NCBI GenBank assembly: GCA_945860955.1
Contig: CAMATH010000003.1
Span: forward strand, 48,111 to 112,110
Length of the DNA: 64,000 nucleotides
Source of the DNA: Planctomicrobium piriforme
Lineage (GTDB): Bacteria > Planctomycetota > Planctomycetia > Planctomycetales > Planctomycetaceae
Reading direction: 5' to 3'
Shown here: one piece after another, positions 29,413 through 45,923 of the stretch
Layout of the letters: every line of letters begins with the position of its first letter
How positions within the stretch are numbered: the stretch's first letter is position 1
The notes under the pieces: model-generated
What the model was told of the DNA's origin: nothing
Databases searched by the model: none
What the model saw: the letters and a program-made list of their open reading frames with translations, nothing else
Translations under genes and position numbers: made by a program

Positions 29413-29624
29413 TGGATCGAATTCGATTCGTCATCGCGGTCAAGACAACGCCCCCCTCTTGGGCTGTCGATTGAGGCGATCCGGTCGCGTGTTTGCCACA
29501 ACCGGAGCGACGCTGCAGAGCGTCGTCGCTACAAAACCGACAGCCCCCTCTCGCGGCAGCCGGAAACTGGAAGTAGAATTCCCACCGGTTGAGACGACCG
29601 TTCCACTTTTCAGGGTTGGTTCCG

Positions 29625-31262
29625 ATGCGCGCTCCGTCGAACTTCCATTTTCGCTGGCCGACGATTCTTGGATGGATGACCCTGTCACTTCTGGGGTTGC
29701 CCGGAATGTCGGAAGTTCCGGTCACCACCTCCGCCCCTTCACGTGCCGCGGCTGACGATGCGCCGGCCGTTCGGGGGACATTCGTGTTCAACGCCCGCAA
29801 GCGGGTTGAAACCTCCCCAGGGAGTGGTCGCTACCACGCGATCACCCAACGGGTCGAATGGGATGCCCGCAAGACTGCGGTGGTGATCTGCGACATGTGG
29901 GACGAGCATTGGAGCCGGCCCGCGACCCGCCGTGTCGCCGAGATGGCCCCCCGTATGAACGAAGTGGTCGCCGAGGCCCGGCGTCGTGGCGCGCTGATCA
30001 TCCATTGCCCCAGCGACACGCTCGACTTTTACAAAGACACTCCGCAGCGGGCACTCGCGAAGCAGGCCCCCGTCATCGAAACCAAGATCCCGCTCGAACG
30101 CTGGTGCCGCATTATCGAGGCGCAGGAGGGAAGACTTCCGATCGACGACAGCGACGGTGGCTGCGACAACGTCCCCCCCTGCAAGAATTACAAGGCCTGG
30201 AGCCGACAGATCGCCACGATTGAAGTCCATTCCCAGGACGCGATCACCGATAGTGCCGAGGCGTTTTACCTGATGCGTACGCGCGGCATCGACAATGTGA
30301 TCGTGATGGGAGTTCATACCAATATGTGCGTGCTGGGACGTCCGTTTTCCATTCGCCAACTGGTTCGGCAAGGGCAGAACGTCATGCTGCTGCGCGATAT
30401 GACCGACACCATGTACAACCCACGGATGGCCCCGTTCGTTCACCACTGCACCGGGACCGACCTCGTGATCGAGCATATCGAAAAGAACTGGTGTCCGACG
30501 GCGACCAGTGTCGATCTGATGGGAGGGAAGGAATTCCGTTTTTCGGAAGACCAGCGGCCGCACGTCGCTGTGCTGATGGCGGAAGACGAGTACAAAACCG
30601 AACAGTCGCTTCCCGCCTGGGGGGCGAAATTTCTGGGGAAGGAATTCCGCACCACCTATATCTTCGGTAACGATACAGACCGCAATGAATTGCCGGGTAT
30701 CGACGCTCTCGATCAGGCGGACGTGCTGCTGGTGAGCGTTCGCCGACGGGTTCCCACGAAAGGGCAGCTCGACATCGTGCGTCGGTTCATTGAAGCGGGC
30801 AAACCGGTGGTGGGAATTCGAACTGCCAGTCACGCGTTTTCATTGCGCGATGGAGCTCCGCCGCCAGAAGGTCACGACGCGTGGCTGACCTTCGATCCGG
30901 AGGTGCTGGGAGGACATTACACCGGCCACCACGGGGAAGGCTTGAAGGTGGCGGTGTCGGTGCCGGGGGAATCGCCCCATCCCATTCTGACGGGGGTCAA
31001 CGTGACCGAGCTGGTGGGGAATGGATCGTTGTATAAGGTGAATCCGCTGGCGATCTCGGCGACGCCGATTCTGATCGGTTCGATTCCCGACACACCAGTC
31101 GAACCGATCGCGTGGACCTACACCAACAAATTCGGCGGCCGGGTGTTTTACACGTCGCTGGGACACGTGGGTGATTTCGCGGAGCCGGCGTTTCAGCGCC
31201 TGCTGCTGAACGGCGTCCGCTGGGCCGCCGGGCTTTCTGTCGAGGGAGCGGGGACAAAGTAG
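29625..31262 (+). CDS. Exported isochorismatase-like hydrolase fused to a ThuA-like domain
   Basis: This 545-residue protein has a signal peptide (about 1-45), an isochorismatase-like cysteine hydrolase domain (about 75-300) and a ThuA-like glutamine-amidotransferase-fold domain (about 310-535). The hydrolase keeps the aspartate of AVVICDMWDEHW and the nucleophile Cys235 in GVHTNMCVLGRPF. The ThuA part shows VVGIRTASHAF, then GGHYTGHHGEG and the GRVFYTSLGH motif. ThuA-like proteins are linked to trehalose-related sugar metabolism. The fusion suggests one polypeptide acting on an exported carbohydrate or amide substrate, but no reaction can be named. The upstream TTG at 29589 is an alternative start. 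Confidence 0.85.
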   Translation: MRAPSNFHFRWPTILGWMTLSLLGLPGMSEVPVTTSAPSRAAADDAPAVRGTFVFNARKRVETSPGSGRYHAITQRVEWDARKTAVVICDMWDEHWSRPATRRVAEMAPRMNEVVAEARRRGALIIHCPSDTLDFYKDTPQRALAKQAPVIETKIPLERWCRIIEAQEGRLPIDDSDGGCDNVPPCKNYKAWSRQIATIEVHSQDAITDSAEAFYLMRTRGIDNVIVMGVHTNMCVLGRPFSIRQLVRQGQNVMLLRDMTDTMYNPRMAPFVHHCTGTDLVIEHIEKNWCPTATSVDLMGGKEFRFSEDQRPHVAVLMAEDEYKTEQSLPAWGAKFLGKEFRTTYIFGNDTDRNELPGIDALDQADVLLVSVRRRVPTKGQLDIVRRFIEAGKPVVGIRTASHAFSLRDGAPPPEGHDAWLTFDPEVLGGHYTGHHGEGLKVAVSVPGESPHPILTGVNVTELVGNGSLYKVNPLAISATPILIGSIPDTPVEPIAWTYTNKFGGRVFYTSLGHVGDFAEPAFQRLLLNGVRWAAGLSVEGAGTK

Positions 31263-31279
31263 GCCAGTCTACACGCTGC

Positions 31280-31319
31280 CGAAAACGCAGTTTTCGCAGA
31301 GCAGCTTCCGTAAGGAAGC
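31280..31319. other. Two small hairpins between convergent genes
   Basis: CGAAAAC-GCA-GTTTTCG (31280-31296) and GCTTCC-GTAA-GGAAGC (31304-31319) lie between the convergent ThuA-fusion and DUF2752 genes. Neither is followed by a good T-tract, so a bidirectional terminator role is only a possibility. Confidence 0.35.
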
Positions 31320-31352
31320 GGTCAAACAATACCGCATCCTTAAGGGCGTGAA

Positions 31353-31883
31353 TCAATGGAAACTGTTTGGCGGACTCGGCAAGGGGCTTACGCCCGCGCC
31401 GCTCGCCAGGGGGAGCCAGCCGAGGAGCCAGTTCACGATGAGGGCGATGATGAGGAAGGTGGCCAGATATTTGGGCCATTTGCGTCCTAATGGGGAACCG
31501 GTCGGGTGCGCGAGGGCCCAGAGGCGGTACGGTATTTGGGCGACCGTCGCCAATGCCAGCAGCCACCCCAGTCGATGAAACCGCCAGCCGGCTCCCCAGT
31601 CAAAATGCGCTAGCGAGACGAAGCTCCGGGTCAGGCCACAGCCCGGACACGGGATGCCAAACCACGTCCTGGAGAAGCAGCTCTCTGGAGCGGGAACACT
31701 CGGGAAAAACCAGAATGCAACTTTCTGTTCGTCCCGGACCACCAGCATCCCCGCCAGCGCGATCACCACCCCGGAGATCACCAGCATCAACCGGTGCCGT
31801 TCCCGCAGCGATCGCAAATCGGCGGCGACTACTCGTCCGTCGGAAACGCCGGGATCGCGATGATCGTCTGGCACTCTCGGCAT
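31353..31883 (-). CDS. DUF2752 membrane protein, last gene of the ubiquitin-like operon
   Basis: This protein, up to 176 residues, has three predicted membrane helices (about 32-50, 100-120 and 138-160). It carries the DUF2752 signature PCPGCGLTRS near residue 74, a conserved CxxCGxTR motif of unknown function. If it starts at 31883 it overlaps the E2-like gene by 55 bp; an ATG at 31790 would remove the overlap but also the basic cytoplasmic N-terminus. I keep the longer form with low certainty on the start. It is the distal gene of the nine-gene set, and the link to the pathway is by position only. Confidence 0.72.
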   Translation of the reverse strand: MPRVPDDHRDPGVSDGRVVAADLRSLRERHRLMLVISGVVIALAGMLVVRDEQKVAFWFFPSVPAPESCFSRTWFGIPCPGCGLTRSFVSLAHFDWGAGWRFHRLGWLLALATVAQIPYRLWALAHPTGSPLGRKWPKYLATFLIIALIVNWLLGWLPLASGAGVSPLPSPPNSFH

Positions 31884-32608
31884 CGGACTCGTTTCCCCGC
31901 CATGGCGGCTGGCACCCGGTATTTCTCACCACACTTGGGACACCGCAACGCCAACCCCTGTTCGGTGTCGACGGGAGGTCGCGTTGTCGCACTCGCGGCT
32001 GCGGCTGGCTGCGGACGCGAGGGTCGGTCCTCCGCTAGTGCCTCGGCCACGGGGCGACTGGGCGGTGCGGACCGCTGGGGCGCGGGGCTGGCCGGTCGCG
32101 CGGGGGCGTCGGTCTTCGGGACCGCGGCTTTCGCCCCCTGCGGGTTCATGTCGACCAGCATGCTCACCTTGTCGAGCGGGAGTTCTTCGGCGTTCTTCTC
32201 GGCCCACCGCGCTGCCTCGCCATTCAACGGGCTCTTTACGTTGTAACTCTGGAACGACAGCATCTCACCAATCCGCGCCACAATCGACCAGATCGGCTCC
32301 CCCGCGCTCCAGTGATCTCCCACACAAATCGCGTGCGGCGCGATGTTGGGATGAAACACCGGCGTCAACATTCGGCACTGCGGCGCGGTCCGGGGGTAAT
32401 CGCGGGGCAACACGATCTCGACCTGGTGGACGGCGATCTCCTTCAGATCGTCCCCCACCTGCCTGAGACTGCGGATGCGGTATTCGATCGCGTATCGCTC
32501 GGGCGGGTCACCGTCGGCCGCCAGCAGAGCGAGCCGGGGGTGGCGATCGATGAAATCGCTCAGCTTTTGAAAGTCGGCGGTCAATCGCCGCAGGCGGATC
32601 GTACTCAT
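31829..32608 (-). CDS. E2-like (UBC-fold) ubiquitin-conjugating protein with C-terminal zinc ribbon
   Basis: This 259-residue protein has a UBC-fold domain (about 1-140), a Pro/Ala-rich linker (about 155-215) and a zinc ribbon with Cys223, Cys226, Cys243 and Cys246. The UBC core shows the E2 landmarks in order: YPRTAPQC near 71-78, HPN at 86-88, the candidate catalytic Cys95 in AICVGDHW, and SPLNGEAARW at 126-135, matching the sPLN-EAA end of eukaryotic E2s. E2 enzymes take a ubiquitin-like protein from E1 as a thioester and pass it to a target. Its ATG overlaps the RING-protease stop by four bases (ATGA), so both are made together. Confidence 0.88.
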   Translation of the reverse strand: MSTIRLRRLTADFQKLSDFIDRHPRLALLAADGDPPERYAIEYRIRSLRQVGDDLKEIAVHQVEIVLPRDYPRTAPQCRMLTPVFHPNIAPHAICVGDHWSAGEPIWSIVARIGEMLSFQSYNVKSPLNGEAARWAEKNAEELPLDKVSMLVDMNPQGAKAAVPKTDAPARPASPAPQRSAPPSRPVAEALAEDRPSRPQPAAAASATTRPPVDTEQGLALRCPKCGEKYRVPAAMAGKRVRCRECQTIIAIPAFPTDE

Positions 32609-33921
32609 GGTGCGTTCAGGGGCGGGTTGCCCAACTCGCGGCGCAGAAAAGGGACGTCAAACGATACAAACGTCTCGAACGAAATGGCGAAACTCAAGCC
32701 TTCACCGACTCGTTTGTCGATGGTGGCGGTGTTGATGCCGATCAGACGCCCCTTGGCGTCGTAGAGGCCGCCGCCGCTGTTTCCATGATTGATGGCCGTG
32801 CTGGTTTGAATCATCCGCACCTGCCGGGCACCCTTCGGTTGCAGGCGAAACTGCGAGACCGTGCCCTGGGTATGCGTCCAACCCAGACCTTGCGGATTCC
32901 CGACGGCGAAGACGTTGTCTCCGATTCGGGGTTCGACTCCAGCGGCCCAATCAGCGGCCTGAATCTTGTCGGAAAGCACGGTCGTCTGCACCACCGCGAG
33001 ATCGACGCCATCGGGGGCGGTCCACAACACGGTAGCCGGCTGCGTTTTCTGATCGACCATTTTGACGCGAATCTCGCCGCGAAGCGCGTCTCCCCGGGCG
33101 GCGGTATTGGTTCGCTCGGTGAAGTCGGGATCCACGACATGGCGATTGGTGAGAATCCACGCCGACTTGTTTTCGATCTTCAGCACGATTCCCGAACCAA
33201 TGCTCGAACTGGCCATCCAACCCGATTTGTTGTGGCTCTCGATCAGCACATTCGCCTGCATCGCGCGCTTGAGTGGCGGGTCGAGATTCTCGAGTTCCAC
33301 CACGTCAACATTCATATCCTCCAGCGGCTGATCCTCGTGGATCGCCGGCCCCACGAAGTAGACAATCGCGACCCCCCAGGCGATGACGTCGAACCCGCCC
33401 AAAGCGACTCCCATGGCGGCCAGGCCAATTCCCCGCTGCTTCCGAGAACGCAATGACGCGACCGCCATCAGTCCCAGGACCACCGCCACAAGACCGGTCG
33501 CCAAGCCAAACAGCGGGATTCCCGCGAGCGCGGTCAGGAATGACGCGATCGCCAGCCCGCTGTACGGCTTCTTCGCGCTGGAACCACCTTCGCCGGAACG
33601 TCGTTCCGAATTCGAACTCCGCCGGGAATCTCCGTCGCCTCCCTGTGGGGTGATAATCCGCAACGGAACCGCGCGATCGAGATCGTTTTCAGAAATCGAG
33701 ATCACCGGCTCCTCTTCCGGCGTACTCGGGTCGCCAATCGTTCCCGCCGACCGCGATTTGCATTCCGGCATGCTGCAACCCGCCTCGGCCTGCCAGCAAC
33801 GCCAGTGGTGGATGCCGTTGCAATCGGGACAGACCGTCGTCTCTTGCCCCGGCATGATGCTCAATTTGCAACGGGCACACACCAGGGAACGGCGCGACGA
33901 CAGGCTCGGCTCAAAGCTCAT
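32605..33921 (-). CDS. Membrane protein fusing a RING-like zinc finger to a trypsin-like serine protease
   Basis: This 438-residue protein has an N-terminal RING-like finger with ligands Cys15, Cys18, Cys31, Cys34, His39, Cys42, Cys49 and Cys54 (C4HC3). An acidic/Ser-rich linker follows, then two or three membrane helices (about 122-192) and a trypsin-like domain (about 220-430) of HtrA/DegP type. The catalytic triad is His261 (LTNRHVV), Asp307 (GVDLAVV) and Ser382 (GNSGGG). No PDZ domain is seen. RING fingers serve as E3 ligases in eukaryotes. Here the finger would face the cytoplasm and the protease possibly the other side. The start at 33921 is seven bases after the upstream stop; the 3' end overlaps the E2 start. 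Confidence 0.85.
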   Translation of the reverse strand: MSFEPSLSSRRSLVCARCKLSIMPGQETTVCPDCNGIHHWRCWQAEAGCSMPECKSRSAGTIGDPSTPEEEPVISISENDLDRAVPLRIITPQGGDGDSRRSSNSERRSGEGGSSAKKPYSGLAIASFLTALAGIPLFGLATGLVAVVLGLMAVASLRSRKQRGIGLAAMGVALGGFDVIAWGVAIVYFVGPAIHEDQPLEDMNVDVVELENLDPPLKRAMQANVLIESHNKSGWMASSSIGSGIVLKIENKSAWILTNRHVVDPDFTERTNTAARGDALRGEIRVKMVDQKTQPATVLWTAPDGVDLAVVQTTVLSDKIQAADWAAGVEPRIGDNVFAVGNPQGLGWTHTQGTVSQFRLQPKGARQVRMIQTSTAINHGNSGGGLYDAKGRLIGINTATIDKRVGEGLSFAISFETFVSFDVPFLRRELGNPPLNAP

Positions 33922-33928
33922 GAGAGGT

Positions 33929-34642
33929 TCAATTCGCCATCGAGTAGGCACCAAATGCCAGTAACAACAGTGTATAGATCGCCGAGACGACTATGGAAGC
34001 ATAACCCAGAACCACGTACAGCGGGCCGGCCTTCTGCAGCTCCTTTTTCTTCATCGCCACCAGGATCCCCGAGACCAGCAGTGTCAGGGGGGCCGGGCAG
34101 CCCAGCACGCTCAGGATCAACAGGCCCGGCATGACGTACCGCAACTGTCCGGCCGCCGCTTTCTGCTCCCGCCGCTTTTTGAGTTCGCGGGGGGTCAGTG
34201 GCTCGGCGGTCTCGAACTTCACTCCGCAATGCCGGCATTTGAGAGCCGACGATTTGATCTCTTCACCACAACTGGGGCACTTCTTGAAATCGCCCCAGCC
34301 CCCCTGAGCCGCTCCCCCCGTGGGTGTCGACGACTTGGGCAAACTCGGTGCCTGTTTGCAGCCATAAGTTCCGCACCCGCCGATCGTCGACCAACACTCG
34401 ACGTGATGGAACTGATCGCACCCAGGGCAGACAATCGCCGGCTCGTCACCGCCGATGTCGGTCTGACAGATCGGGCAGGCGCAGCCAATCGCTTTGTCCC
34501 CCAGACGCGTCGACTTCAGAACGGTGGCGTCGATCGTCAGCGCGATCGCCATTTTGCAGACCGGGCAGCGGAAACTGCGGTTCGCCTTGTCTTCCGGCAG
34601 GCGGACGCGGGAACCGCAGTCGCAGGTGATAATCTCGGCCAT
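33929..34642 (-). CDS. Membrane protein with RING-like finger between two zinc ribbons (candidate E3)
   Basis: This 237-residue protein has a zinc ribbon (Cys7, Cys9, Cys26, Cys29) and a RING-like C4HC3 finger (Cys56, Cys59, Cys72, Cys75, His80, Cys83, Cys90, Cys95). A second ribbon follows (Cys122, Cys125, Cys136, Cys139), then two membrane helices (about 168-196 and 206-232). The finger spacing is identical, residue for residue, to that of the neighbouring RING-protease protein. Together with E1, E2 and a ubiquitin-like gene in the same operon, it is a natural candidate for a membrane-anchored E3-like adaptor. That role is inferred; no ligase activity can be read from sequence. Confidence 0.82.
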   Translation of the reverse strand: MAEIITCDCGSRVRLPEDKANRSFRCPVCKMAIALTIDATVLKSTRLGDKAIGCACPICQTDIGGDEPAIVCPGCDQFHHVECWSTIGGCGTYGCKQAPSLPKSSTPTGGAAQGGWGDFKKCPSCGEEIKSSALKCRHCGVKFETAEPLTPRELKKRREQKAAAGQLRYVMPGLLILSVLGCPAPLTLLVSGILVAMKKKELQKAGPLYVVLGYASIVVSAIYTLLLLAFGAYSMAN

Positions 34643-34719
34643 GGGGGGGCATCGTCAGTTCGAGGTGTTTGGCGACTCGCAGGCAATGGACTTCGGAATA
34701 CGCCGCACTGTGGCGTAAG

Positions 34720-35310
34720 CTACATATTGTTGCCGAGGGCACCAACAATCGCCCACAAGATGTTCCACAGGACGGAAAATCCGATCGACACGCCGATCAT
34801 GATTCCTCCCTTGGGCTTCCCTTGAATCAGGTAGACAATCCCCATGATGCAGGCGATGCCGCTGCACAGAATGCACAGCACCCAGTCGGAAGCCTGCATT
34901 TCATTGTCTTCGTTGCTGACTTTCTTTTTCTTCTTCTTGCCACCACCCACCAGGGACTCACCGCAATAGCGGCACTTCTTGGCGATCGCGTTGATCATTT
35001 CGCCGCACATGGGGCAGGGCTTGCGATCGACATCGTCGTCGGGTTCTTCCCGTTCGGCGCGGGACGACGATCGCGACGATTTCGACGAGGAACGGGCGAC
35101 CGGAATTTCGTCTTCCGGTGGCGCCTCCCAGTCTTCTTCGGCCGCCTGGTCGGAAACCTCTTCGGCTTCGTAGATTCTCTCTTCCGCTGGCTCCGGCGCG
35201 GGGACGGTGACCGACATGCTGCACGCCGGGCATTTCGCCGTCTTGCCAGTGGCGTTGTCTGGGGCGTTCAGGCGTTTCCCGCAGGCGGGGCATTCAAACT
35301 TGATGGACAT
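34720..35310 (-). CDS. Zinc-ribbon membrane protein of the ubiquitin-like operon
   Basis: This 196-residue protein has an N-terminal zinc ribbon (Cys7, Cys10, Cys27, Cys30), an acidic and Ser-rich linker (about 40-95), a second CxxC pair ribbon (about 98-118, CPMCGEM and CRYCGES) and a poly-Lys stretch. It ends with two hydrophobic helices (about 140-162 and 168-192). It has no RING-like finger. The layout of soluble zinc modules followed by membrane helices matches its two downstream neighbours. It starts seven bases after the FHA gene ends. Its function is unknown; a scaffold that brings conjugation enzymes to the membrane would fit. Confidence 0.78.
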   Translation of the reverse strand: MSIKFECPACGKRLNAPDNATGKTAKCPACSMSVTVPAPEPAEERIYEAEEVSDQAAEEDWEAPPEDEIPVARSSSKSSRSSSRAEREEPDDDVDRKPCPMCGEMINAIAKKCRYCGESLVGGGKKKKKKVSNEDNEMQASDWVLCILCSGIACIMGIVYLIQGKPKGGIMIGVSIGFSVLWNILWAIVGALGNNM

Positions 35311-35317
35311 GTCTGGG

Positions 35318-36385
35318 TTACTCCGCGTCCTTGACGGCGAATTCGAGAACTGTTTTTCCGAGGGTGATCTGGTCCCCCGTCTGCAACCGGTGTCGGTCGA
35401 TCAATTTTCCATTGACGAACGTGCCATCCGGGGTGTCGCAATCTTCGATCTCGTACCGGCCACCGCGATTGTGGATGATCGCATGCCGGGGTTCGATGGC
35501 GGGATCTTTGAAGAGGTAGATCTCGGCTTTGGGGGAACTTCCCAGGACGGTGGTTTCGCGGTGCATGATGAACTGCTTGCCGGCGAGCGGGCCTTGTTTC
35601 ATCAGGAGCCAGGCGGTTTTGGTCCAGCCTTCGATCAAGCCGACGAACAGCCCGACCATCAGACCGATGATCGTCAAGCCGATGGCGCGGCTGGCCGCCG
35701 CCTCGCCGTCGGCGGTGGAGAAGACGTGAAAGATCGGGTCAAACAACAGACCGCCGAGCAACCCCCCCAGGGCACTTCCCAGCAGGCCGTTGAGCGTGAC
35801 TTTCCATTCGCGGAGGGCGATTCCCTGACCGATTCCAGCCGGTATCGAAACAACCGCCCAGGCCACGGCCCGACCAATCATCCCCAAAAGAAACGGTAAG
35901 CCTGGTTTCAAGCCGCCGTCAACAACGCCCCCTCCCAATTCGACGGCGAACCCCATCGCTACGTTGTAGAAAAGGCCGACTGGAATGATGAGTACGAGCG
36001 CCCCGAGGAAGCCGACTAGTGTTCCGACGACCGCCGAGATGAGCGCCCGCATCGGATTGCGACACATCACCCCTTCGGCGGCCCCCAGAAACAGACCGAT
36101 GCCCCCCGCGACGGCGGGAAAGAGAAAGATGCCGACAAACCGGCTGCCCTCGTCGTCGTTGTCGGAAAAGAACGGCTCCATCGACGCCCAGGCGAGAAAC
36201 CCGCCCAAGCCACTGGCCAGCGACAGGTAGAACCAGTTCGAGAACAGGAGTCGCGCCCAAAGCGGCTGTGGTTCCGACTCGGCGAGATTCTGTTTGAGGT
36301 TCTCCTGCACCGACAGGTATTCCTCGACCTCGCTGGAAAAGAGATCACGCGAGTCGATACGAATCGGATCGTTCGGTCCGGCCAT
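35318..36385 (-). CDS. Multi-pass membrane protein with C-terminal FHA domain
   Basis: This 355-residue protein has a short cytoplasmic N-terminus, several Gly-rich membrane helices (about 45-255) and a C-terminal FHA domain (about 272-350). The FHA domain is marked by TVLGSSPKAEI, then EPRHAII and TFVNG. FHA domains bind phosphothreonine, so the protein probably reads Ser/Thr-kinase signals at the membrane. Planctomycetes have many such kinases, and one is encoded at 1.2-2.7 kb. Sitting between the JAMM peptidase and zinc-finger genes, it could tie protein tagging to phosphorylation; that link is inference. Confidence 0.85.
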   Translation of the reverse strand: MAGPNDPIRIDSRDLFSSEVEEYLSVQENLKQNLAESEPQPLWARLLFSNWFYLSLASGLGGFLAWASMEPFFSDNDDEGSRFVGIFLFPAVAGGIGLFLGAAEGVMCRNPMRALISAVVGTLVGFLGALVLIIPVGLFYNVAMGFAVELGGGVVDGGLKPGLPFLLGMIGRAVAWAVVSIPAGIGQGIALREWKVTLNGLLGSALGGLLGGLLFDPIFHVFSTADGEAAASRAIGLTIIGLMVGLFVGLIEGWTKTAWLLMKQGPLAGKQFIMHRETTVLGSSPKAEIYLFKDPAIEPRHAIIHNRGGRYEIEDCDTPDGTFVNGKLIDRHRLQTGDQITLGKTVLEFAVKDAE

Positions 36386-36491
36386 GAAACGGGTCTCGCG
36401 CGGGAGGGAATCGGGGGGAGCCAGGTGGTGGACTGTGAACTCAGGCGGCGATCGAAGGATTCACGATCTCCTCAGATCGGGTTGGCAGGGG

Positions 36492-37781
36492 CTATTTGTC
36501 AGTCGATTTCGGGGAGGATTTGTCCGCCGGTTTTTCACCGGCCGGGGACTCTTTGGATTTCACGGCGGGTTTCCCCTCCGTCGATTTTCCGTCGCTCGAT
36601 TTTCCGTCCGACGTTTTGGACTCTTTGGGTTTCTTGTCGGGCGTCAACTCCAGCATTCCCTTCGAAGACTTTTTGAGCGGGGCGGAATCTTCAGCTCCAC
36701 CAGATTTCCCTTCGCGGCGTGGATCGCGCCCCGAAGAATTCTGGCCAGCCAAGACCATTCGCATGATGGCCGCCTGTTCTTGAGGCGAAAGAGCGTAATT
36801 CCGTTCAATCGACCCCAGAATCTCGCCCATTCGCGAGACTTCTTCTTTCGCCCCTTTCCAAGTGGCTTTGAGGTCGGACTTGGAATCGTTCTCCTTGGAC
36901 TCCGCTTTCGGATTCGAGGCCTGTTCGATCTGGGCCATGCGATCCTTCAATTGAGACATTGTGATCCGGGCCTGTTCGACATGCTCTTCCAACCCCGGCC
37001 GCAAGATCTTCGCCTGGAAGAACTGCATCGCGATTGCTTCGCGCACGAGCTGTTCCTTTCGAGCGTCGGCCCAGCCCGCGAGCATGTAACCCAGCATCCC
37101 CGCCAGGAAGATCAAGCCGGTCGTCGTCAATGTCGACGTCCAATCGCCTCGATCGTCCGCGCGACCTCGTCCCGCCGACAGATCGGCCGAGTTCATGGCA
37201 GTTCCGGACACACCCGACTGCGCAGCGGGAGCCGGATCGGCCGGGCGGATCAGGAGTTTCGACCCGGCCCAGTAATGCGTCATCAGGGTCGGCTTGCCGG
37301 CGCGCCAACAAAAGACTCCCTCCAACCGACGGATCGGGTCGATCACCAGCGCGATCTGCCCCGCACCCGAGAAGAAGTGCTGGTGAATGAACACGTCGGG
37401 ATCGGACAGGAAGATGCCGAAGTCTGGATGCGAATGGTACCACCCGACAATTCGGCTGTCGGCGTACTTCGTGTCCATCTCCTGATTGATCTTGCCCCAT
37501 GCCTCGTGGGTGAATGTCACCTCCGCATGCCCGCTCTTGGCAGTGTCGCACTGGATGATGTGCTGCACCTCGACGTACGGCCCCTCGGCGTCACGCCGCC
37601 AGACCCCCACCAGTACACCACAAATCTCGACCGACTTGTTCGACGTCGCGTGCTGCCACGCCTGATCATGGGCCGACGGGGCGAAAAAGACCCTCAGATC
37701 CCCCCCGCCGCGTCCGGGAAACGCTCCCTGGGGAATTTCTTCTTGAGCCAGCAGCTTGACGTCGGGTTGGGATGAACTCAT
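36492..37781 (-). CDS. Membrane-anchored JAMM/MPN metallopeptidase (deubiquitinase-like)
   Basis: This 429-residue protein has an N-terminal JAB/MPN domain (about 30-170) with the full JAMM zinc site: Glu52 (VEICGVLVG), then HSHP with His116 and His118, Ser126 and Asp129. This is the E...HxHPx6SxxD pattern of isopeptidases such as Rpn11 and CSN5. One membrane helix (about 219-237) is followed by a coiled coil (about 243-290) and a Lys/Ser/Asp-rich disordered tail. The enzyme would trim or remove ubiquitin-like tags, on the cytoplasmic side if the N-terminus stays inside. Its ATG overlaps the E1 stop by four bases (ATGA). Confidence 0.9.
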   Translation of the reverse strand: MSSSQPDVKLLAQEEIPQGAFPGRGGGDLRVFFAPSAHDQAWQHATSNKSVEICGVLVGVWRRDAEGPYVEVQHIIQCDTAKSGHAEVTFTHEAWGKINQEMDTKYADSRIVGWYHSHPDFGIFLSDPDVFIHQHFFSGAGQIALVIDPIRRLEGVFCWRAGKPTLMTHYWAGSKLLIRPADPAPAAQSGVSGTAMNSADLSAGRGRADDRGDWTSTLTTTGLIFLAGMLGYMLAGWADARKEQLVREAIAMQFFQAKILRPGLEEHVEQARITMSQLKDRMAQIEQASNPKAESKENDSKSDLKATWKGAKEEVSRMGEILGSIERNYALSPQEQAAIMRMVLAGQNSSGRDPRREGKSGGAEDSAPLKKSSKGMLELTPDKKPKESKTSDGKSSDGKSTEGKPAVKSKESPAGEKPADKSSPKSTDK

Positions 37782-38980
37782 GACGACGCGCCCTGGGGCG
37801 AAAGGGTGTGATGCAGCGAGCCAAGAACACTCCTGGCGTCTCCCGCGAACTCATAATAACGATACGTCTGCCCCGCGCGGGCCGCGATGACATCCCACGC
37901 CGGCACGCCAATTGACTCGAGCGTCCGATCGAGGAATGATTCGCTCCCGGTCACCACATGGAATGTCCGCGGAGTGCGCGGAACCCTGCACTTCGGGCAC
38001 TGCCCCTGCGACTCGGAGACTTTGCCGAGAGAGGCGAACAGTTCGCTGCTCTCGCCGCACTGGGGGCAATCCAACCCCGCCAGCAAATCGCTGTTGAATT
38101 CCAGAATCGCCCCGTCCCCCAGATCGGCCCGCGCCTGAGTCAGCAGTTCCCGAACCGTTGTCGAACCCACCTGCCGATCCAGTGTTTCCACCGGGTCGTA
38201 GGGATCATGCGAAGGGCATTCCTCCCGGCGGGTGTAGTTGACCACGTAGCTCTGGTGCGACAATCCTTCAAAGACAAACCCTTTGCCCGACAATGTCTCC
38301 AGCCCATGCAGCCACTTGACCGCCTCCTGACACTGGATCCCCGCGATGATCGACGCGGTGGTCGGGGTGGTCGGGGTCTTTCCCTGGGTGATGTCATTGC
38401 GGGTCAGCAAGGCGCAACTGCGACGGGCGGCGAGCATCTTCCAGTCGTTTTCGCTCATCGTGCATTCGTAGCAGGGACCGCACGCCGGGTCGAACACTCG
38501 GGCCACACCATCAAGCCGCTCGATCGCGCCGTCGATCCAGACCTTGCCCGAGCGGGCGGCGGCCCGGTTGATCGAGACCCGCGCTTCGCGATTGTCGAGC
38601 CCCGCGATGACAATGTCGGCCCAGCGATAGATTCCCAGTCCCAAGTCGTAAACGACATTCCCCGCCCAGGGAACGACATGCAGCCCCGCATAGATTTCCC
38701 GAGCCCGCTCGGCGGCGATGACGCTTTTCGGACGCCCTTTGTCGTGTTCTCGAAACAGCACCGAGCGTGACAGGTTCGACTGCTCGATATGGTCCAGATC
38801 GCAGACAACAACCTGGCCGATCCCCAGTAGCGCGAGATTCTTGAGGATCTCGTTCCCGAGCGCGCCGGCACCAATGACGAGCACTCTGGCCCGGGCGAGT
38901 TTGTGCTGGTCCCACCAGCTCATCAGACGAAAACGGGCGAACCGATCGTCTTCCGCAGTCACTTGAAGGATGTCGCTCAC
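37778..38980 (-). CDS. E1-like ubiquitin-activating enzyme (ThiF/MoeB/UBA family)
   Basis: This 400-residue adenylating enzyme has the Rossmann ATP loop GAGALGNE (37-44), Asp61 and Asp63, then NLSRS with Arg72, and Asp80-x-Gly82-x-x-Lys85, all as in E1 enzymes. A CGPCYEC cluster (Cys167, Cys170, Cys173) follows, then Cys189 before TRNDITQGKTPTTPTTASIIAG, the candidate thioester cysteine. Beyond about 260 it has an extra domain with a zinc ribbon (Cys305, Cys308, Cys328, Cys331), which plain MoeB/ThiF proteins lack. E1 enzymes adenylate a ubiquitin-like C-terminus and pass it to E2. The gene lies 46 bp after the ubiquitin-like gene and overlaps the JAMM gene. Confidence 0.9.
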   Translation of the reverse strand: MSDILQVTAEDDRFARFRLMSWWDQHKLARARVLVIGAGALGNEILKNLALLGIGQVVVCDLDHIEQSNLSRSVLFREHDKGRPKSVIAAERAREIYAGLHVVPWAGNVVYDLGLGIYRWADIVIAGLDNREARVSINRAAARSGKVWIDGAIERLDGVARVFDPACGPCYECTMSENDWKMLAARRSCALLTRNDITQGKTPTTPTTASIIAGIQCQEAVKWLHGLETLSGKGFVFEGLSHQSYVVNYTRREECPSHDPYDPVETLDRQVGSTTVRELLTQARADLGDGAILEFNSDLLAGLDCPQCGESSELFASLGKVSESQGQCPKCRVPRTPRTFHVVTGSESFLDRTLESIGVPAWDVIAARAGQTYRYYEFAGDARSVLGSLHHTLSPQGASS

Positions 38981-39026
38981 GTCCAGACCCCCGCCAGCAC
39001 TGACTTATAATCCACTCGGGCGAAAT

Positions 39027-39368
39027 TCAGACGATGGGCACCGGCCGCCGTAGGACGGGGCTCTGACCCGACCGGAGGCGAATCGAGAGAAAATCGGTCG
39101 CGCCTGCGGTGATTTCCGGTTGCAGCCGGAGTACGTCTCCCGATCGGACGCCCGCGTTCGACAGCGTTTCGTCTTCCAGCAATTGCCGGCCCGAACCTTT
39201 GTGGTGGAACTTGTAACTCATCAACTGTCCGTCGGGGCTGTGACGGGGGAGGTTCATCTTGTCGACGAGAACCGCGATGACGCGATTCACCTCGGCATCC
39301 GCCGGCACTTCGACTGTCTGCCGTTTGTTGCCGGTGGCGTCCCAGACTTCGATTTGAATATTGCTCAT
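39027..39368 (-). CDS. Ubiquitin-like beta-grasp protein (YukD/EsaB-like)
   Basis: This 113-residue protein has a ubiquitin-like fold at about 1-86: two N-terminal strands (NIQIEVWD, RQTVEVP), a helix (VNRVIAVLVDKM), a strand (SYKFHHK) and the LLEDETLSNAGVRSGDVLRLQ segment, matching the L-D-TL-..GI-.GD.L end of ubiquitin and YukD proteins. There is no terminal diglycine. Where ubiquitin ends, the sequence reads ITAGAT and continues for 24 residues. It is the first gene of the operon, which makes it the likely modifier. The ATG at 39368 is chosen because the frame upstream of it (to 39449) has no family-like sequence. Confidence 0.78.
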   Translation of the reverse strand: MSNIQIEVWDATGNKRQTVEVPADAEVNRVIAVLVDKMNLPRHSPDGQLMSYKFHHKGSGRQLLEDETLSNAGVRSGDVLRLQPEITAGATDFLSIRLRSGQSPVLRRPVPIV

Positions 39369-39747
39369 GCGCCCGTCGTCCGCTGCGGTCGGTTGGTCTG
39401 GAGGGAAATTGCCGGTGGTCGGGTCCGGACAACCCGACATTCGAACCACACCATACGGTAGCCGACGCCGGGTACCTCACCAGTCTGGTACACAGAACGG
39501 GGGTTTTCAAGCCGGGCGGGACGGAATTTTCACGATTTGACAGTTGTCGAATCGGGCGGGTTGGAAAAATCGCGAAAAGACAGTGGCGGCCACAAACACC
39601 GGAAGGACTCGGGCGCCAGCAACGAAATAGAAAAAAAAGATCCCCACGAGTTCGTGGGGATCTTGAGAAGACCAGCCGCTGGAAGCAGCCTTACTTTCCT
39701 TTGCGTTGAGGTCACGAGACGAAACGTCCCGCCTCATCGCGAGTTCA
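39369..39747. other. Intergenic region: leader of the ubiquitin-like operon and L27 terminator
   Basis: This stretch separates rpmA from the ubiquitin-like operon, both on the minus strand. It contains the strong rpmA terminator (39631-39664). The promoter of the operon should lie between that terminator and 39368, but I see no convincing -35/-10 pair there. The plus-strand frames crossing it look like shadows. Confidence 0.5.
39631..39664 (-). terminator. Rho-independent terminator of rpmA
   Basis: On the minus strand, a perfect 13-bp stem (arms 39652-39664 and 39637-39649, around a CCCCAC core) closes a tiny loop and runs straight into eight T residues (complement of the A-run 39631-39638). 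It lies 84 bp after the L27 stop and isolates the ubiquitin-like operon from upstream transcription. Confidence 0.92.
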
Positions 39748-40032
39748 TCAGTTGCTGGCGGCGGCGGCAGCCGCGGCAGCGGCCGCTTCGTGCGAGATCA
39801 CGTTCACGCGACGACCTTCCTGGTCAAACTTCACCCGCCCCGGGACGAGGGCGAAAATCGTGTAGTCACTTCCCAATCCCACGCCTTTGCCGGGACGCCA
39901 CTTCGTGCCACACTGCCGGATGATGATATTTCCGGCGATGACTTCTTCACCACCGTATTTCTTCACTCCGAGCCGTTGACTGCGAGAGTTTCGACCGTTG
40001 CGGGTGGAACCTTGTCCCTTCTTGTGAGCCAT
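39748..40032 (-). CDS. rpmA: 50S ribosomal protein L27
   Basis: This 94-residue ribosomal protein sits near the peptidyl transferase centre of the large subunit. The N-terminal [16 protein letters not shown], then LGVKKYGG and CGTKWRPG motifs identify it. The N-terminus begins directly with the mature MAHKKG form, so no cleaved extension is present. Odd points are an alanine run of about ten residues at the C-terminus ([13 protein letters not shown]) and the absence of rplU (L21), its usual upstream partner. Upstream is a Tat-exported protein gene instead. A strong terminator follows. Confidence 0.96.
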
Positions 40033-42115: not shown

Positions 42116-43615
42116 TCAATTCTCGTCTCGTGTCAATTCGTCGTGGTCGGGTTGGTCCGGCTGAATCAACAGCCCCGGATCGCTACGGAGTGCGAAGTTC
42201 ATGACCGCCGTCGATCTGTGCGGGGCCAACTGCTGTAGAGCCTGAATGACAGGCTGAATCTGGCTCGTTTCGTCGCCGGCCGGTACAACCAGCACGACGT
42301 GATCTGCGAGGGCCACGCCCAACCGGGCGGCAGTCCTTTGTTCTAAAGGACCAAGATCCAACACCACCAGATCACACTTCTGCCTCACTTGATGCAAGAA
42401 CTGTGCCAACGCTTTGCGAGAAATATTGACATCCGACATCTTGTCGGAATTCCCCGCTGGCAAAATTCTTAACGAACTCAGTGAACTGGTCGAACGGTCA
42501 GGGAGCTGTCCATTCAGGTGTCCGGATAGCAGAACTTCGCGCAACCCTTCTTCGTTTTCCAGCCCGTACGCGGTGGTCAGTTTCCGCTGTGACAGGTCGG
42601 CGTCGACCAGTACGGTATTCACATGGGCGGACGCGAACGCCCGCGCCAATCCCAGCGCGATTGTGGAACTTCCCGCCTCCAGCCGCGTCCCGGTCACCGC
42701 CAGAACCTCCGTCGAGCCCACCCCCACCGAACGCAACTGCAAGTCGACCGTCAGCCGCTGCAATGCATGAAGGAACGCCGGCTGCTCATCCACTTTCCCT
42801 TCACCAAAATCGGGCAGAACTCCCACCAGCGGAAGCCACGGATGCCCACCCGAAAGATCGTCGCTGTAGCGATATCGCCGGAAGACCAAGCCCAGCGCCA
42901 CCACCGTAGCCAATCCCCCAGCCCCCCCAAACACCGCCCCCGCCAAGCCAAACATCATTCGCTTGTCGGCGGACGGCGCGATCGAAACCGCCCCGCGCGA
43001 GCGAATCTCCACCGTCCCGGGCAAGCTGTGCTGGCTTTCCACCCGAATCTGTTCCAGCGCCTTCCGCGTCTCTTCCAGCATCTTCATGGACTGCTCACGC
43101 TCTTTCGAACGCGATTCCAGCCGGACCATCCGCTCGTTCAGTTGCCGGGCCTCTTCCTGCAGAGCCGTGTGGCGAGCGACAAATCGATCGCGTAGCGCTT
43201 TGAGATCCGCCACCGATTCCGCGTTACTGCCGCCAGCTTTTGATAGCGCGCCAACCGAACCGAGCGTCGACAACTGCGTTCGGCGATCTTCAATCGCCTT
43301 GTCGATGATCTTGATCTTCGCGGTCTTCTCAACCACTTCGCGATGCTCTTTCGCATGCCGGCCTTCCAGATATTCCAAATCCCCCGCCAGCTTGCTCCGT
43401 TCAAACAGCATGTCGGCCATCGCGTGGTCGAGGACCATCAACCGCTTGATTTCCTGATCGCCAATATCAATGCTGCTTTCGTTTGAGTTCGCTTCTTTCG
43501 TAGCGATGCTCATCTCCAGCTCGGCGATCCGCTGGTCCACCTCTTCAGCCTGCGAGATCTTGCGAATGTGGGCACCGGTGATGGAAATCGCTCCGTATTC
43601 CCTTCCAATTTCCAC
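42116..43615 (-). CDS. C-terminal part of Wzc-like polysaccharide co-polymerase/BY-kinase-like protein
   Basis: These 499 residues hold a long coiled coil (about 15-200), a membrane helix (about 219-246) and a CpsD/BY-kinase-like ATPase domain (about 275-470). Walker A is degenerate (GTRLEAGSST, lysine missing). Walker A' (VLVDADLS) and Walker B (LVVLDLG) are recognisable, and there is no C-terminal tyrosine cluster. Kinase activity is therefore doubtful. The frame is continuous with the upstream Wzz-like gene: only an in-frame TAG and one ATT codon separate the upstream coding sequence from this GTG start. It is best read as the second half of one interrupted protein that controls polysaccharide chain length. 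Confidence 0.8.
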   Translation of the reverse strand: MEIGREYGAISITGAHIRKISQAEEVDQRIAELEMSIATKEANSNESSIDIGDQEIKRLMVLDHAMADMLFERSKLAGDLEYLEGRHAKEHREVVEKTAKIKIIDKAIEDRRTQLSTLGSVGALSKAGGSNAESVADLKALRDRFVARHTALQEEARQLNERMVRLESRSKEREQSMKMLEETRKALEQIRVESQHSLPGTVEIRSRGAVSIAPSADKRMMFGLAGAVFGGAGGLATVVALGLVFRRYRYSDDLSGGHPWLPLVGVLPDFGEGKVDEQPAFLHALQRLTVDLQLRSVGVGSTEVLAVTGTRLEAGSSTIALGLARAFASAHVNTVLVDADLSQRKLTTAYGLENEEGLREVLLSGHLNGQLPDRSTSSLSSLRILPAGNSDKMSDVNISRKALAQFLHQVRQKCDLVVLDLGPLEQRTAARLGVALADHVVLVVPAGDETSQIQPVIQALQQLAPHRSTAVMNFALRSDPGLLIQPDQPDHDELTRDEN

Positions 43616-43618
43616 AAT

Positions 43619-44293
43619 CTACCGATCGAGATCCTTCAGTTTCGCCAGCAAATCTTGTTCGCGATTTCCCAGTTCCCGTTCCCGCACCCGGTCCTGGTAC
43701 TGTAACTGCTTGTGGTACATTTCGAGGTACGCAGTCAGCACGCCGTTCACGATCGCGGCGGCGTCCTCGGCCTTGTCGTCCGACGCGGATACGAAAATCA
43801 ACCCCCCCTTGCGCTCCGCCGTCACGGTTCTCGACAGCTTTGAAACTCCCGTCATCCCGCTCGGCCAGCCGATCTGCGACAGGGTCGGCTGCTCGACCGC
43901 CAGTTCCAAGACCGGCGTACTCAGAAGGTACGACGTTTCGGCGTTCGCGAACGCGTCAAACAGCCGCAACCGGGAATCGTCGCGATCGTTGTAGAGAATA
44001 CTCGTTTTGTTCGGGAAGACCTGAACAATCCCAGTGCTGGAATAGGTCGGCTTCTTCGCCATGAACCCGCCCACCGCACCGATCGAACCGAGCATTCCCG
44101 CCAACAACATCGCGGGAATCATCCGCCCCCGCAATGTGCGGACGACCATCCCCACCGGGTTGACACCCGGAGTCTCCGCGTCCCCGTCCCCTCCCTCTCC
44201 GCCCCCCGACGATCCAATGCGCGCATTCACCCTCTGGGCGGTCAGCGCGTCGTCCACAGCCTGCTCTGGCAGTATCAGTTCCTGATCACTCAT
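43619..44293 (-). CDS. N-terminal part of Wzc-like polysaccharide co-polymerase (Wzz domain)
   Basis: This 224-residue piece has a cytoplasmic N-terminus (about 1-55), the first membrane helix (about 58-80), a Wzz-type periplasmic domain (about 82-195) and the start of a coiled coil ending LLAKLKDLDR. It stops at TAG (43621-43619), and the same frame then continues into the downstream gene. A complete Wzz/Wzc-like protein of about 726 residues would result if the TAG were a sense codon such as CAG. It overlaps the GT2 gene end by eight bases and belongs to the exopolysaccharide cluster. Confidence 0.8.
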   Translation of the reverse strand: MSDQELILPEQAVDDALTAQRVNARIGSSGGGEGGDGDAETPGVNPVGMVVRTLRGRMIPAMLLAGMLGSIGAVGGFMAKKPTYSSTGIVQVFPNKTSILYNDRDDSRLRLFDAFANAETSYLLSTPVLELAVEQPTLSQIGWPSGMTGVSKLSRTVTAERKGGLIFVSASDDKAEDAAAIVNGVLTAYLEMYHKQLQYQDRVRERELGNREQDLLAKLKDLDR

Positions 44294-45218
44294 CCGGGCT
44301 CCTCCGTGGTGCGGCCGGCTCGGCAGTGGTCCGACTCGACAGGTCGCGCTCCCATTGGGGATTCCCCTTGGCTAGCGTCTGGCGGGCTCGGACCGAAGTC
44401 TGCCACACCACATAAAAGTATACCGGTAACGCCGGCCATAACCAGGGGGCGCACACCAGTCGACTTAAAAATCGCCCCCGCGATGGACGCTGGGCCTTCG
44501 CCCGAACCGGTTGCAGCCGTTCCAGTTCCAGATTCCCCCGACGACTGCGGGTCTTGATTTTGATCAGGTCGGCCAAACCCCGCGGCGGAGTCACCAGAAA
44601 CCGACATTCGGCCAGTGTCGTTCGTTCCGAATCATCGAACAGTTGCCGTACATATTCATCATCTGCCGTCAGTTGCGGAAATTCCTTCAGCCGATCATGC
44701 CCCGCAGCGCTCAACGCATACAGCCCTGAACCGAGCCGCCCGGAATCGAAATACGGATGCTTGCGCCACACGGCGTAAAATGCCCGGACCGCCCAACTGC
44801 TGCGGGAAAGATCCCAGTCGATCGCTGGCGAGGCCGCCAGGTACTTTCCCGAACTCAGCACCGCGACCGTCTTGCGCAACGCGTCGATCGTCATCACCAC
44901 GTCGGCGTCGACGTAAAAACGGGGAAACGCGGTCGCACGCTGGTCACCGTAGTTCAAGGCGGCGATCTTCGACGCCACCGGACAATGCAGCACCTGAACC
45001 GCTTCGCCAAACCCTCCCGCGATTTCCGCCGTCCGATCAGTGCAGCCATTGCACACGACGAGAATCTCCAACTCGCCTGGGTTGGCTCCGTCGAGCAGAG
45101 CCGTCAGACAGCGCGCAATCACCGCCTCTTCGTTGTGGGCGGGGATCACAATCGACGCCCGCGCGACAGACCCGGCGGTAACAACTGAAGCGACATTGGA
45201 CGATTCTGGCGGCATCAT
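44286..45218 (-). CDS. Glycosyltransferase family 2
   Basis: This 310-residue GT-A-fold enzyme opens with VIPAHNEEAVIARCL near residue 23 (nucleotide-sugar site). It has the DxD-like motif DADVVMTID near residue 105, and a hydrophobic C-terminal segment (about 255-280) that may hold it at the membrane. It would add one sugar in the building of the exopolysaccharide repeat unit. It lies three bases after the acetyltransferase gene and overlaps the Wzz-like gene. Donor and acceptor are not readable. Confidence 0.87.
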   Translation of the reverse strand: MMPPESSNVASVVTAGSVARASIVIPAHNEEAVIARCLTALLDGANPGELEILVVCNGCTDRTAEIAGGFGEAVQVLHCPVASKIAALNYGDQRATAFPRFYVDADVVMTIDALRKTVAVLSSGKYLAASPAIDWDLSRSSWAVRAFYAVWRKHPYFDSGRLGSGLYALSAAGHDRLKEFPQLTADDEYVRQLFDDSERTTLAECRFLVTPPRGLADLIKIKTRSRRGNLELERLQPVRAKAQRPSRGRFLSRLVCAPWLWPALPVYFYVVWQTSVRARQTLAKGNPQWERDLSSRTTAEPAAPRRSPDE

Positions 45219-45221
45219 CGG

Positions 45222-45923
45222 TCAGCCCTGCGAGTTTCCTGAATCACCTGCCGGCGGGGTTGCCGGCACAACCAGCAGCGACTCCAGTTCGTTGATTCGT
45301 GATAGCCACTCATCGGCCGACATCATCCACCAAGCGCTCGCCGTGACACGAGCGGCCACTTCGGGGGGAAACCGATCACGAATCTTGCGTGCCGGGTTTC
45401 CCGCGACAATCGCGAAGTCGGGAACATCTTTCGTCACCACTGCCCCCGCGCCAACCACCGCGCCGTTGCCTACTCGATGACACCCCGGTGTGATGATCGC
45501 GTTACTTCCAATCCAGACGTCGTGACCGATTTCGAGCTTTCCGGGGGGAAGCGCAGCGGTCTCGGCGACACCGGGCTGGTGTTCGTACAGCAACGGATGC
45601 GTCGTGAGCCGATCGAGCGGATGGTTCTGCGTGAACATGCGGACGCCCCGGGCAACCGAGACGTACCGGCCGATTTCGATTCCCGGCGGCAGCAGCGCCG
45701 GATCGAAACACTCGCCGTAACTCCACGCGCCGATCGAAACTCCATGGTACTTCGCCATGAAGAACCGGGCGGTCGCCGAACGCATCGCCCCGCGTTCCAA
45801 ACGCATGGCCAGTTGCAGCAAGACCCGGGCGATTCGCCAGCGCCGTTTGCAATTCAGCACGCGATAACACCAGCGCAGGACCGGCGCGAACCGCGACTCC
45901 ACCAGATCGGGACCGTGACTCAT
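45222..45923 (-). CDS. Left-handed beta-helix acetyltransferase (WbbJ/maa-like)
   Basis: This 233-residue protein has a helical, basic N-terminus and hexapeptide-repeat turns (about 75-195). The active-site region contains FTQNHPLD, the active-site histidine loop of this family, and the VWIGSNAIITPGCHRVGNGAVVGAGAVVTKDVP coils are typical of galactoside/sugar O-acetyltransferases. It would acetylate a sugar of the exopolysaccharide, using acetyl-CoA. Its ATG overlaps the stop of the Alg13-like gene by four bases. Confidence 0.88.
   Translation of the reverse strand: MSHGPDLVESRFAPVLRWCYRVLNCKRRWRIARVLLQLAMRLERGAMRSATARFFMAKYHGVSIGAWSYGECFDPALLPPGIEIGRYVSVARGVRMFTQNHPLDRLTTHPLLYEHQPGVAETAALPPGKLEIGHDVWIGSNAIITPGCHRVGNGAVVGAGAVVTKDVPDFAIVAGNPARKIRDRFPPEVAARVTASAWWMMSADEWLSRINELESLLVVPATPPAGDSGNSQG

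Follow-up and report, generated by a model that had tools for sequence, protein, structure and literature searches.

A 64,000-nucleotide stretch of DNA from Planctomicrobium piriforme (assembly GCA_945860955.1, contig CAMATH010000003.1, positions 48,111 to 112,110 of the forward strand), here called the window, carries an operon that we interpret, with a probability of about 0.78, as a self-contained pathway for modification by a ubiquitin-like protein (Ubl), likely acting on the inner side of the cell membrane. The operon is a run of nine minus-strand open reading frames (ORFs), from position 39368 down to 31353, in the order Ubl, E1-like activating enzyme, JAMM metalloprotease, FHA-fold protein, zinc-ribbon protein, RING membrane protein (RINGm), RING-protease fusion (RINGp), E2 conjugating enzyme and DUF2752 protein. 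Its domains, catalytic residues and gene order indicate a Ubl conjugation system that is real and probably functional. Our interpretation draws further on the Ala-Gly end shared by the Ubls and the unconserved tail that follows it, on the resemblance of the E1 model to NEDD8 and SUMO E1s, and on the absence of the E2 cysteine from genomes that lack the Ubl. A sequence-only reading of the window had already proposed a complete conjugation operon built around membrane proteins, and that proposal is supported by the full Ubl-E1-E2-RING-JAMM set, whose catalytic residues are intact, by the membrane anchoring of several parts and by an order kept in relatives.

Layout of the operon

The nine-gene run, including 4-base overlaps at the E1/JAMM and RINGp/E2 junctions, was borne out by the ORFs, by Pfam and by the gene order of relatives; 7-base gaps separate the FHA from the zinc-ribbon gene and the RINGm from the RINGp gene. 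Because this order is conserved in relatives, the arrangement is not attributable to chance. Profile searches for the UBC, ThiF, JAB, RING and YukD families each gave a match above the Pfam cut-off (UQ_con, ThiF, JAB, Prok-RING_1 and YukD), whilst none of the nine proteins reached an NCBIfam cut-off and an Rfam scan of positions 31000 to 40000 found nothing. The features are as follows.

39027..39368, minus strand: Ubl, a predicted 113-residue precursor of YukD-like beta-grasp type (Pfam YukD 3.4e-11, above cut-off)
39102..39104, minus strand: codon of Gly89, the predicted mature C-terminus (...PEITAG; position computed from the ORF start)
39030..39101, minus strand: 24-residue C-terminal tail of the Ubl, predicted to be removed by the JAMM protein (unconserved in relatives)
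37778..38980, minus strand: E1-like activating enzyme, GTG start, 400 residues, ThiF fold and C-terminal domain (Pfam ThiF 2.5e-50)
38414..38416, minus strand: E1 Cys189, predicted catalytic (alignment invariance)
36492..37781, minus strand: JAMM/JAB metalloprotease with a borderline membrane segment C-terminal to the domain (Pfam JAB 3.2e-12)
37395..37436, minus strand: JAMM motif HSHPDFGIFLSDPD (residues E52, HSHP116..D129)
35318..36385, minus strand: multi-pass membrane protein with a C-terminal FHA-fold domain (Pfam FHA 7.9e-15, Yop-YscD_cpl 1.4e-12; hydropathy)
35357..35551, minus strand: the FHA-fold domain, without the usual phosphothreonine contacts (alignment column counts)
34720..35310, minus strand: zinc-ribbon protein with two membrane segments (zinc-ribbon Pfam matches below cut-off; hydropathy; place kept in relatives)
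33929..34642, minus strand: RINGm, a candidate E3 with a C4HC3 cross-brace, zinc ribbon and membrane segments (Prok-RING_1 1.7e-8, above cut-off)
34358..34477, minus strand: RINGm cross-brace, residues 56-95 (zinc-ligand spacing)
32605..33921, minus strand: RINGp, a second candidate E3 with a RING, a membrane segment (DUF4190) and an HtrA-like serine protease domain (Trypsin_2 7.5e-25, DUF4190 4.4e-9)
33760..33879, minus strand: RINGp cross-brace, residues 15-54 (Cys/His spacing equal to that of RINGm)
31829..32608, minus strand: E2 conjugating enzyme with a C-terminal zinc ribbon (Pfam UQ_con 1.9e-11, above cut-off)
32324..32326, minus strand: E2 Cys95, predicted catalytic, after the HPN motif (sequence motif)
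31353..31883, minus strand: DUF2752 membrane protein, accessory (Pfam DUF2752 5.5e-16; last gene in six relatives with the full order)

The modifier and its enzymes

As encoded, the window Ubl ends in -RRPVPIV rather than in Gly and looks unfit for conjugation. In an alignment of eight Ubls, 54 positions up to Gly89 are invariant, whereas no position beyond it is. Arg81 is conserved, and the stretch from there to the Gly reads LQPEITAG. More widely, a conserved Ala-Gly is followed by an unconserved tail of 0 to 51 residues, the Gly being common to 107 of the 108 homologues examined; the one locus without it is L092 (our handles for loci and genomes begin with L and G, respectively). Two Ubls were dropped before tails were counted, those of L114 (truncated) and L092 (motif missing). 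Among 93 distinct sequences, 23 stop at the Gly itself, and the residue after the Gly can be any of 14 kinds. Since the Gly is conserved and the tail is unconserved and sometimes absent, the window Ubl is very probably a precursor whose 24-residue tail is to be trimmed, and the conserved Gly end would then be available to the E1. The operon's own JAMM protein is the obvious candidate for the predicted cleavage. An archaeal JAMM protein matures a tailed pro-ubiquitin, according to passages of PMC5654768. A profile of the Ubl family matched no solved structure at 0.01.

Nearly all relatives keep the catalytic residues of the pathway. The E1 combines a ThiF fold with Cys189, which is invariant in a 36-row alignment, and the equivalent cysteine was kept in all 89 distinct E1s (78 by pattern, 11 by eye); for a comparison of distances, removal of near-identical E1s reduced the set from 54 to 46. 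The predicted E1 model resembles NEDD8 and SUMO E1s, and also ThiF and MoeB. It has a confident C-terminal domain (residues 264-393), into which whole-model alignments extend: 306 residues were aligned with 9dqb_B (root-mean-square deviation 3.7) and 300 with 2nvu_B (7.6), both to residue 381. The JAMM motif (E52, HSHP116 to D129) is intact in the window, and the motif was present in 83 of 83 JAMM proteins. Although the transmembrane segment of the window JAMM protein is borderline (hydropathy maximum 1.51), 70 of 76 related proteins pass a hydropathy of 1.6 with a segment after the JAMM domain. The E2 carries its cysteine behind an HPN motif and is alone among the proteins of the window's genome (8.4 Mb, 98.9 % complete) in matching UQ_con; it belongs to a family whose profile matches 1jas (E2 B) in the PDB at 2.8e-11.

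The E2 cysteine and the Ubl were lost together. Five E2 paralogues, L049-L053 (in G079, G124, G001, G009 and G006), lack the cysteine after the HPN motif. The last four of these genomes hold only such an E2 and gave no match to the Ubl profile, being 82, 99, 100 and 100 % complete, respectively. The Ubl is present in 16 of the 17 genomes in which a cysteine-bearing E2 was seen, the sole miss being G138, a fragmented assembly that is 89 % complete; it is also present in G122, where the E2 is split by contig ends and its cysteine is not visible. The 16 are the window's genome, G008, G017, G027 and 12 others. We conclude from this pattern that the E2 cysteine is retained where the Ubl is retained. 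The cysteine-less proteins may be either pseudo-E2s left behind after loss of the cassette or repurposed E2s. The genes at L051-L053 are surrounded by unrelated genes.

Distribution and conservation of gene order

A search of 150 genomes of the order identified 18 (the window's own included) with a cassette-type E2 and four more with only the cysteine-less paralogue; G128 gave a weaker match in the E2 region (2e-6), and nearly all other matches were to the zinc-ribbon tail. Six relatives of the family (L033, L044, L045, L046, L047 and L048) have the complete nine-gene order, as a search of planctomycete genomes for the same order had been expected to reveal. Variants were also seen: in L035 nothing between the JAMM and RINGp genes matches the FHA, zinc-ribbon or RINGm protein, RINGp itself is unmatched in L039 and L042, and in one genus (G146, G139, G100, G064) the E2 and the Ubl lie on separate contigs. 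At L036 and L037 (G139 and G100), an E2-DUF2752 pair sits among unrelated genes.

Across the phylum, 29 of 392 genomes matched the Ubl profile, seven of the 29 falling outside the examined set. The 20 regions fetched around the Ubls of 18 of these genomes comprised ten of the FHA membrane type, nine of a compact type and one short fragment. The compact clusters (L079, L086-L093, all Planctomycetota) contain a homologous Ubl and E2. Their Ubls show the same pattern, here with -VAG, and have the Gly end in eight of nine; Ubl, E1, E2 and JAMM are all present in seven of nine (L079 lacks a JAMM match and L092 an E1 match). They differ from the window operon in having other gene orders and no FHA gene match, and a RING match is confined to L086 and L090. 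In the L090 cluster (G480), a single Ubl and a single E1 are accompanied by a RING match and by pairs of JAMM and E2 genes, one of the two E2s lacking the Cys motif.

A scan of named genomes by Ubl alignment, from which the best 80 of 202 relatives were kept (names as deposited, mostly metagenome-assembled genomes), extended the range further. These 80 loci carry the names Planctomycetota, Riflebacteria, Sumerlaeota, Deltaproteobacteria and Myxococcales, Acidobacteria, Victivallales, Spartobacteria and one metagenome-assembled Bacillota genome. All six core genes were present in 40 of the 80, and 38 of these 40 kept the order Ubl-E1-JAMM-FHA-RING-E2. The whole six-gene core is also present in a culturable species, Lacipirellula limnantheis strain I41 (L106). 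A RING in these counts is the best match to RING profiles; an ORF with the eight-ligand pattern itself was found in 70 of 76 FHA-holding loci, which were not de-duplicated. In 52 loci the sequence extended 6 kb or more beyond the Ubl on its downstream side, and 40 of these were complete. Among the 12 incomplete loci, the E2 match was missing in eight (together with the RING in L107) and the FHA in L105, whilst L118 and L120 showed only the Ubl, and L135 the Ubl with the FHA gene. The Victivallales locus gave no E2 match before its contig end. Complete cores in records named after other phyla, examples of which are listed below, do not support the idea of a specifically planctomycete system.

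L124, L128: complete core, Riflebacteria
L139, L144: complete core, Sumerlaeota
L147, L165: complete core, Deltaproteobacteria, Myxococcales
L158, L162, L163, L167: complete core, Acidobacteria and Holophagaceae
L171: complete core, Bacillota
L173: complete core, Spartobacteria

Membrane-anchored proteins

Hydropathy identified membrane segments in the FHA, zinc-ribbon, both RING and DUF2752 proteins, a borderline one in the JAMM protein, and none in the Ubl, E1 or E2, which bears out the anchoring of several parts in the membrane. The two RING proteins are the only Prok-RING_1 matches in the window's genome. Whilst RINGp matches this model below its cut-off (3.7e-5), it shares with RINGm the identical ligand spacing C-x2-C-x12-C-x2-C-x4-H-x2-C-x6-C-x4-C, which upholds the call of two RING fingers.

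For the protease domain of RINGp, models of the HtrA/DegS type were the best in NCBIfam, all below their cut-offs. The H261, D307 and S382 motifs are in place in the window, and 26 of 32 relatives contained all three by a strict pattern, the other six failing at the D motif. The flank on the N-terminal side of the RINGp membrane segment is more positive than that on the C-terminal side in 29 of 30 relatives, a charge bias from which the RING is probably cytosolic and the protease outside. Against this opposite-side topology, a single-sequence fold of RINGp was confident only in two long hydrophobic helices (122-155, 160-193); these would favour placing RING and protease on the same side, in a poor model with an overall predicted local distance difference test score of 38.8.

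The FHA protein had been expected to act as a reader. Its fold is supported by Pfam (7.9e-15), but not the reading of phosphothreonine, for which FHA domains use an Arg after the first Gly, the Ser of SxxH and the Asn of NGT. At the Arg position, 72 of 77 aligned rows have Ser and one has Arg; at the Ser position, Ser occurs in six of 78 rows (rows not de-duplicated in either case); and Asn is outside the six commonest residues at the Asn position. With these contacts replaced, we rejected a role as phosphothreonine reader. The domain carries a conserved stretch of its own, GSSP-IYLFKD, and the protein is more likely a structural scaffold.

Alternative functions and genomic surroundings

Operons that combine E1, E2, JAMM and Ubl genes include some with known defence roles, and the operon could on these grounds be an anti-phage cassette of the Bil, Bub or CBASS (cyclic-oligonucleotide-based antiphage signalling system) kind that attaches its Ubl to phage or defence proteins. 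Its patchy spread within the order (18 of 150 genomes) would suit such a role, as would partial matches to PADLOC E1 models, down to 6.9e-14; the operon proteins matched parts of the PADLOC E1, JAMM and E2 models and a protease domain. However, none of ten neighbouring window proteins matched PADLOC at 1e-5. In the flanks of 54 relatives, a scan of 138 of 240 candidate proteins returned seven PADLOC families at 1e-15 (one with three members, six with one), counts that have no baseline. By Pfam, these flanks hold a housekeeping mixture of RecA, transporters and metabolic enzymes, and no gene adjoining the cassette is widely recurrent, the commonest cluster occurring in nine of 80 loci. Membrane anchoring and the HtrA fusion are also features that Bil is not known to have. 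A defence island was rejected on the PADLOC and neighbour scans, in keeping with the sequence-only view that this is something other than a simple defence cassette; a defence role is possible, though unlikely, and draws no support from its context.

A Ubl with ligases and a JAMM protein also resembles the eukaryotic route to degradation, and the Ubl might tag proteins for a bacterial proteasome as Pup or UBact do. We consider this very unlikely and rejected proteasome coupling, because the window's genome (98.9 % complete) contains no match to PF00227 (proteasome/HslV), nor do G210 or G414. Where the family does match, it is single in 12 of 13 genomes (two adjacent pieces in G275), as would suit a lone HslV gene better than distinct 20S subunits. 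As for the proposed coupling of tagging with proteolysis, the operon's only protease besides the JAMM protein is the HtrA-type domain fused to the RING. The YukD match of the Ubl raises a different option, in which it would be an unconjugated YukD/EsaB-type subunit serving type VII (ESX-like) secretion, and another contig of the genome does carry a WXG100 gene close to one for an FtsK/SpoIIIE ATPase. Such an unconjugated subunit, however, has no need of an E2, a RING or JAMM protein or a Gly-terminated core. Neither WXG100 nor FtsK was matched in Pfam among the nine genes or the ten neighbours scanned, and four of eight cassette genomes tested had no WXG100 match, three of them single-contig (G008, G017, G479); we rejected this option as very unlikely indeed. 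The resemblance of the E1 to ThiF and MoeB is compatible with a sulfur-carrier pathway, in which the E1 and the Ubl would contribute to the making of cofactors or siderophores. Two further ThiF-family genes lie elsewhere in the genome, the cassette has no metabolic gene by Pfam, and we know of no role for E2 or RING proteins in sulfur transfer, leaving this as the least likely of the explanations considered.

Several observations concern the surroundings themselves. Upstream of the operon, a few kilobases away, is an exopolysaccharide-type cluster (window 42116-49360; AAA_31/Wzz-like genes and glycosyltransferases). Downstream, on the other strand (29589-31262), one protein has isochorismatase-like and ThuA-like domains, and a very long open frame of 2685 codons occupies window positions 12079-20136. 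The loci with the commonest neighbour are all named Phycisphaerae, Phycisphaerales or Tepidisphaeraceae. This neighbour, a divergent gene resembling chain-length determinants and tyrosine kinases (an identity read from its sequence), lies upstream of the Ubl in L131, L140, L143, L145, L149, L151, L154, L157 and L166, at most 2 kb away except in L154. On another contig of the window's own genome (L182:4324-9720), a WXG100 gene, an unassigned gene and a gene for a 1364-residue FtsK/SpoIIIE ATPase stand in a row in a type VII-like arrangement, with no match to the cassette Ubl profile beside them.

Relation to known systems

In 2011, Burroughs, Iyer and Aravind reportedly put forward bacterial RING E3s, the conjugation of YukD-like Ubls, and E1s carrying a ubiquitin-fold domain. 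The window has a YukD-like Ubl and, together with an E2, eight-ligand Prok-RING proteins, both features of operons of that type. In passages of a 2014 review (PMC4197634), which cites Burroughs et al. 2011, related operons are placed in Actinobacteria, Planctomycetes and Acidobacteria and termed uncharacterized and sporadic; the likeness to the window seen there lies in the kind of operon and in the phyla Planctomycetes and Acidobacteria. The RING, FHA and protease genes had been regarded as additions that set this operon apart. They are present as described, but the kind of operon is not new, related operons having been reported in 2011 according to the same passages. Compared by description, the Ala-Gly maturation site, altered FHA, RING-HtrA fusion and wider range of phyla are what our data show beyond the 2011 operons, where they may already be noted. 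Earlier still, passages of Iyer et al. 2006 (PMC1779556) describe E1/E2/JAB/Ubl operon types 6a-6e, treat RING E3s as seemingly eukaryotic innovations whilst leaving bacterial E3-like adaptors possible, and state that Bacillus subtilis YukD is not conjugated.

The operon of Ca. Caldiarchaeum subterraneum, as presented in passages of PMC5654768, shares with the window a tailed Ubl precursor, E1, E2, RING and a JAMM protein that matures the Ubl. It is archaeal, with a small RING protein, a Gly-Gly end and a JAMM protein encoded beside the operon, and those passages mention no membrane anchors, FHA fold or HtrA fusion. BilABCD, in passages of PMC11354881, likewise has Ubl, E1, E2 and JAMM in one operon, the JAMM protein exposing a C-terminal Gly. 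It differs in that BilA has two Ubl domains, BilD is a double adenylation pseudodimer (inactive plus active) and no RING is among the four named genes; by Pfam, the window has one YukD domain in its 113-residue Ubl and one ThiF domain in its 400-residue E1. Bub operons, in passages of PMC13373217, resemble the window operon as a bacterial ubiquitination-like pathway for which phage defence is not yet shown. No experimental study of the cassette turned up in our literature searches, although this is no proof of its absence. In sum, the window operon is a member of a predicted kind, to which we add the conserved processing site, the joint loss of E2 cysteine and Ubl, the core order across several phyla, the altered FHA and the layout of membrane and protease parts, some of which may be in earlier papers.

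Proposed pathway and its significance

We propose that the JAMM protein would trim the Ubl precursor after Gly89, that the E1 would activate the Ubl through Cys189 and the E2 carry it on Cys95, and that the RING proteins in the membrane would transfer it to proteins close by, the membrane-anchored JAMM protein reversing the tagging. That the Ubl is cleaved and conjugated, that the RINGs act as E3s and that the JAMM protein undoes the tagging are steps that we infer from the features above. Our best guess is that the substrates are membrane or membrane-proximal proteins. By a further guess, the RING-HtrA fusion might link cytosolic tagging to envelope proteolysis. Taken to its fullest extent, the operon could be a bacterial equivalent of the ubiquitination of membrane proteins in endoplasmic-reticulum-associated degradation: a dedicated, membrane-seated E1-E2-RING-JAMM pathway of several phyla, with one RING fused across the membrane to a DegS/HtrA-like protease, coupling tagging in the cytosol to proteolysis in the envelope and assembled on an FHA fold whose binding of phosphothreonine has been lost. 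This extended version is a tentative suggestion and rather doubtful as a whole.

Complete E1-E2-RING-JAMM-Ubl sets have long been regarded as eukaryotic or archaeal. Here, the E2 is recognisably close to eukaryotic enzymes, the E1 model is NEDD8/SUMO-like, and the same order recurs, membrane-seated, in several bacterial phyla. Two questions are now testable, namely whether ubiquitin-type control serves bacteria for anything other than phage defence and whether Ubls of the YukD type become conjugated, the Ubl(1-89), E1, E2 and RING domains being small pieces that can be assayed directly. If the tag attaches to proteins at the membrane, the operon would be a bacterial relative of the ubiquitin system in our own cells.

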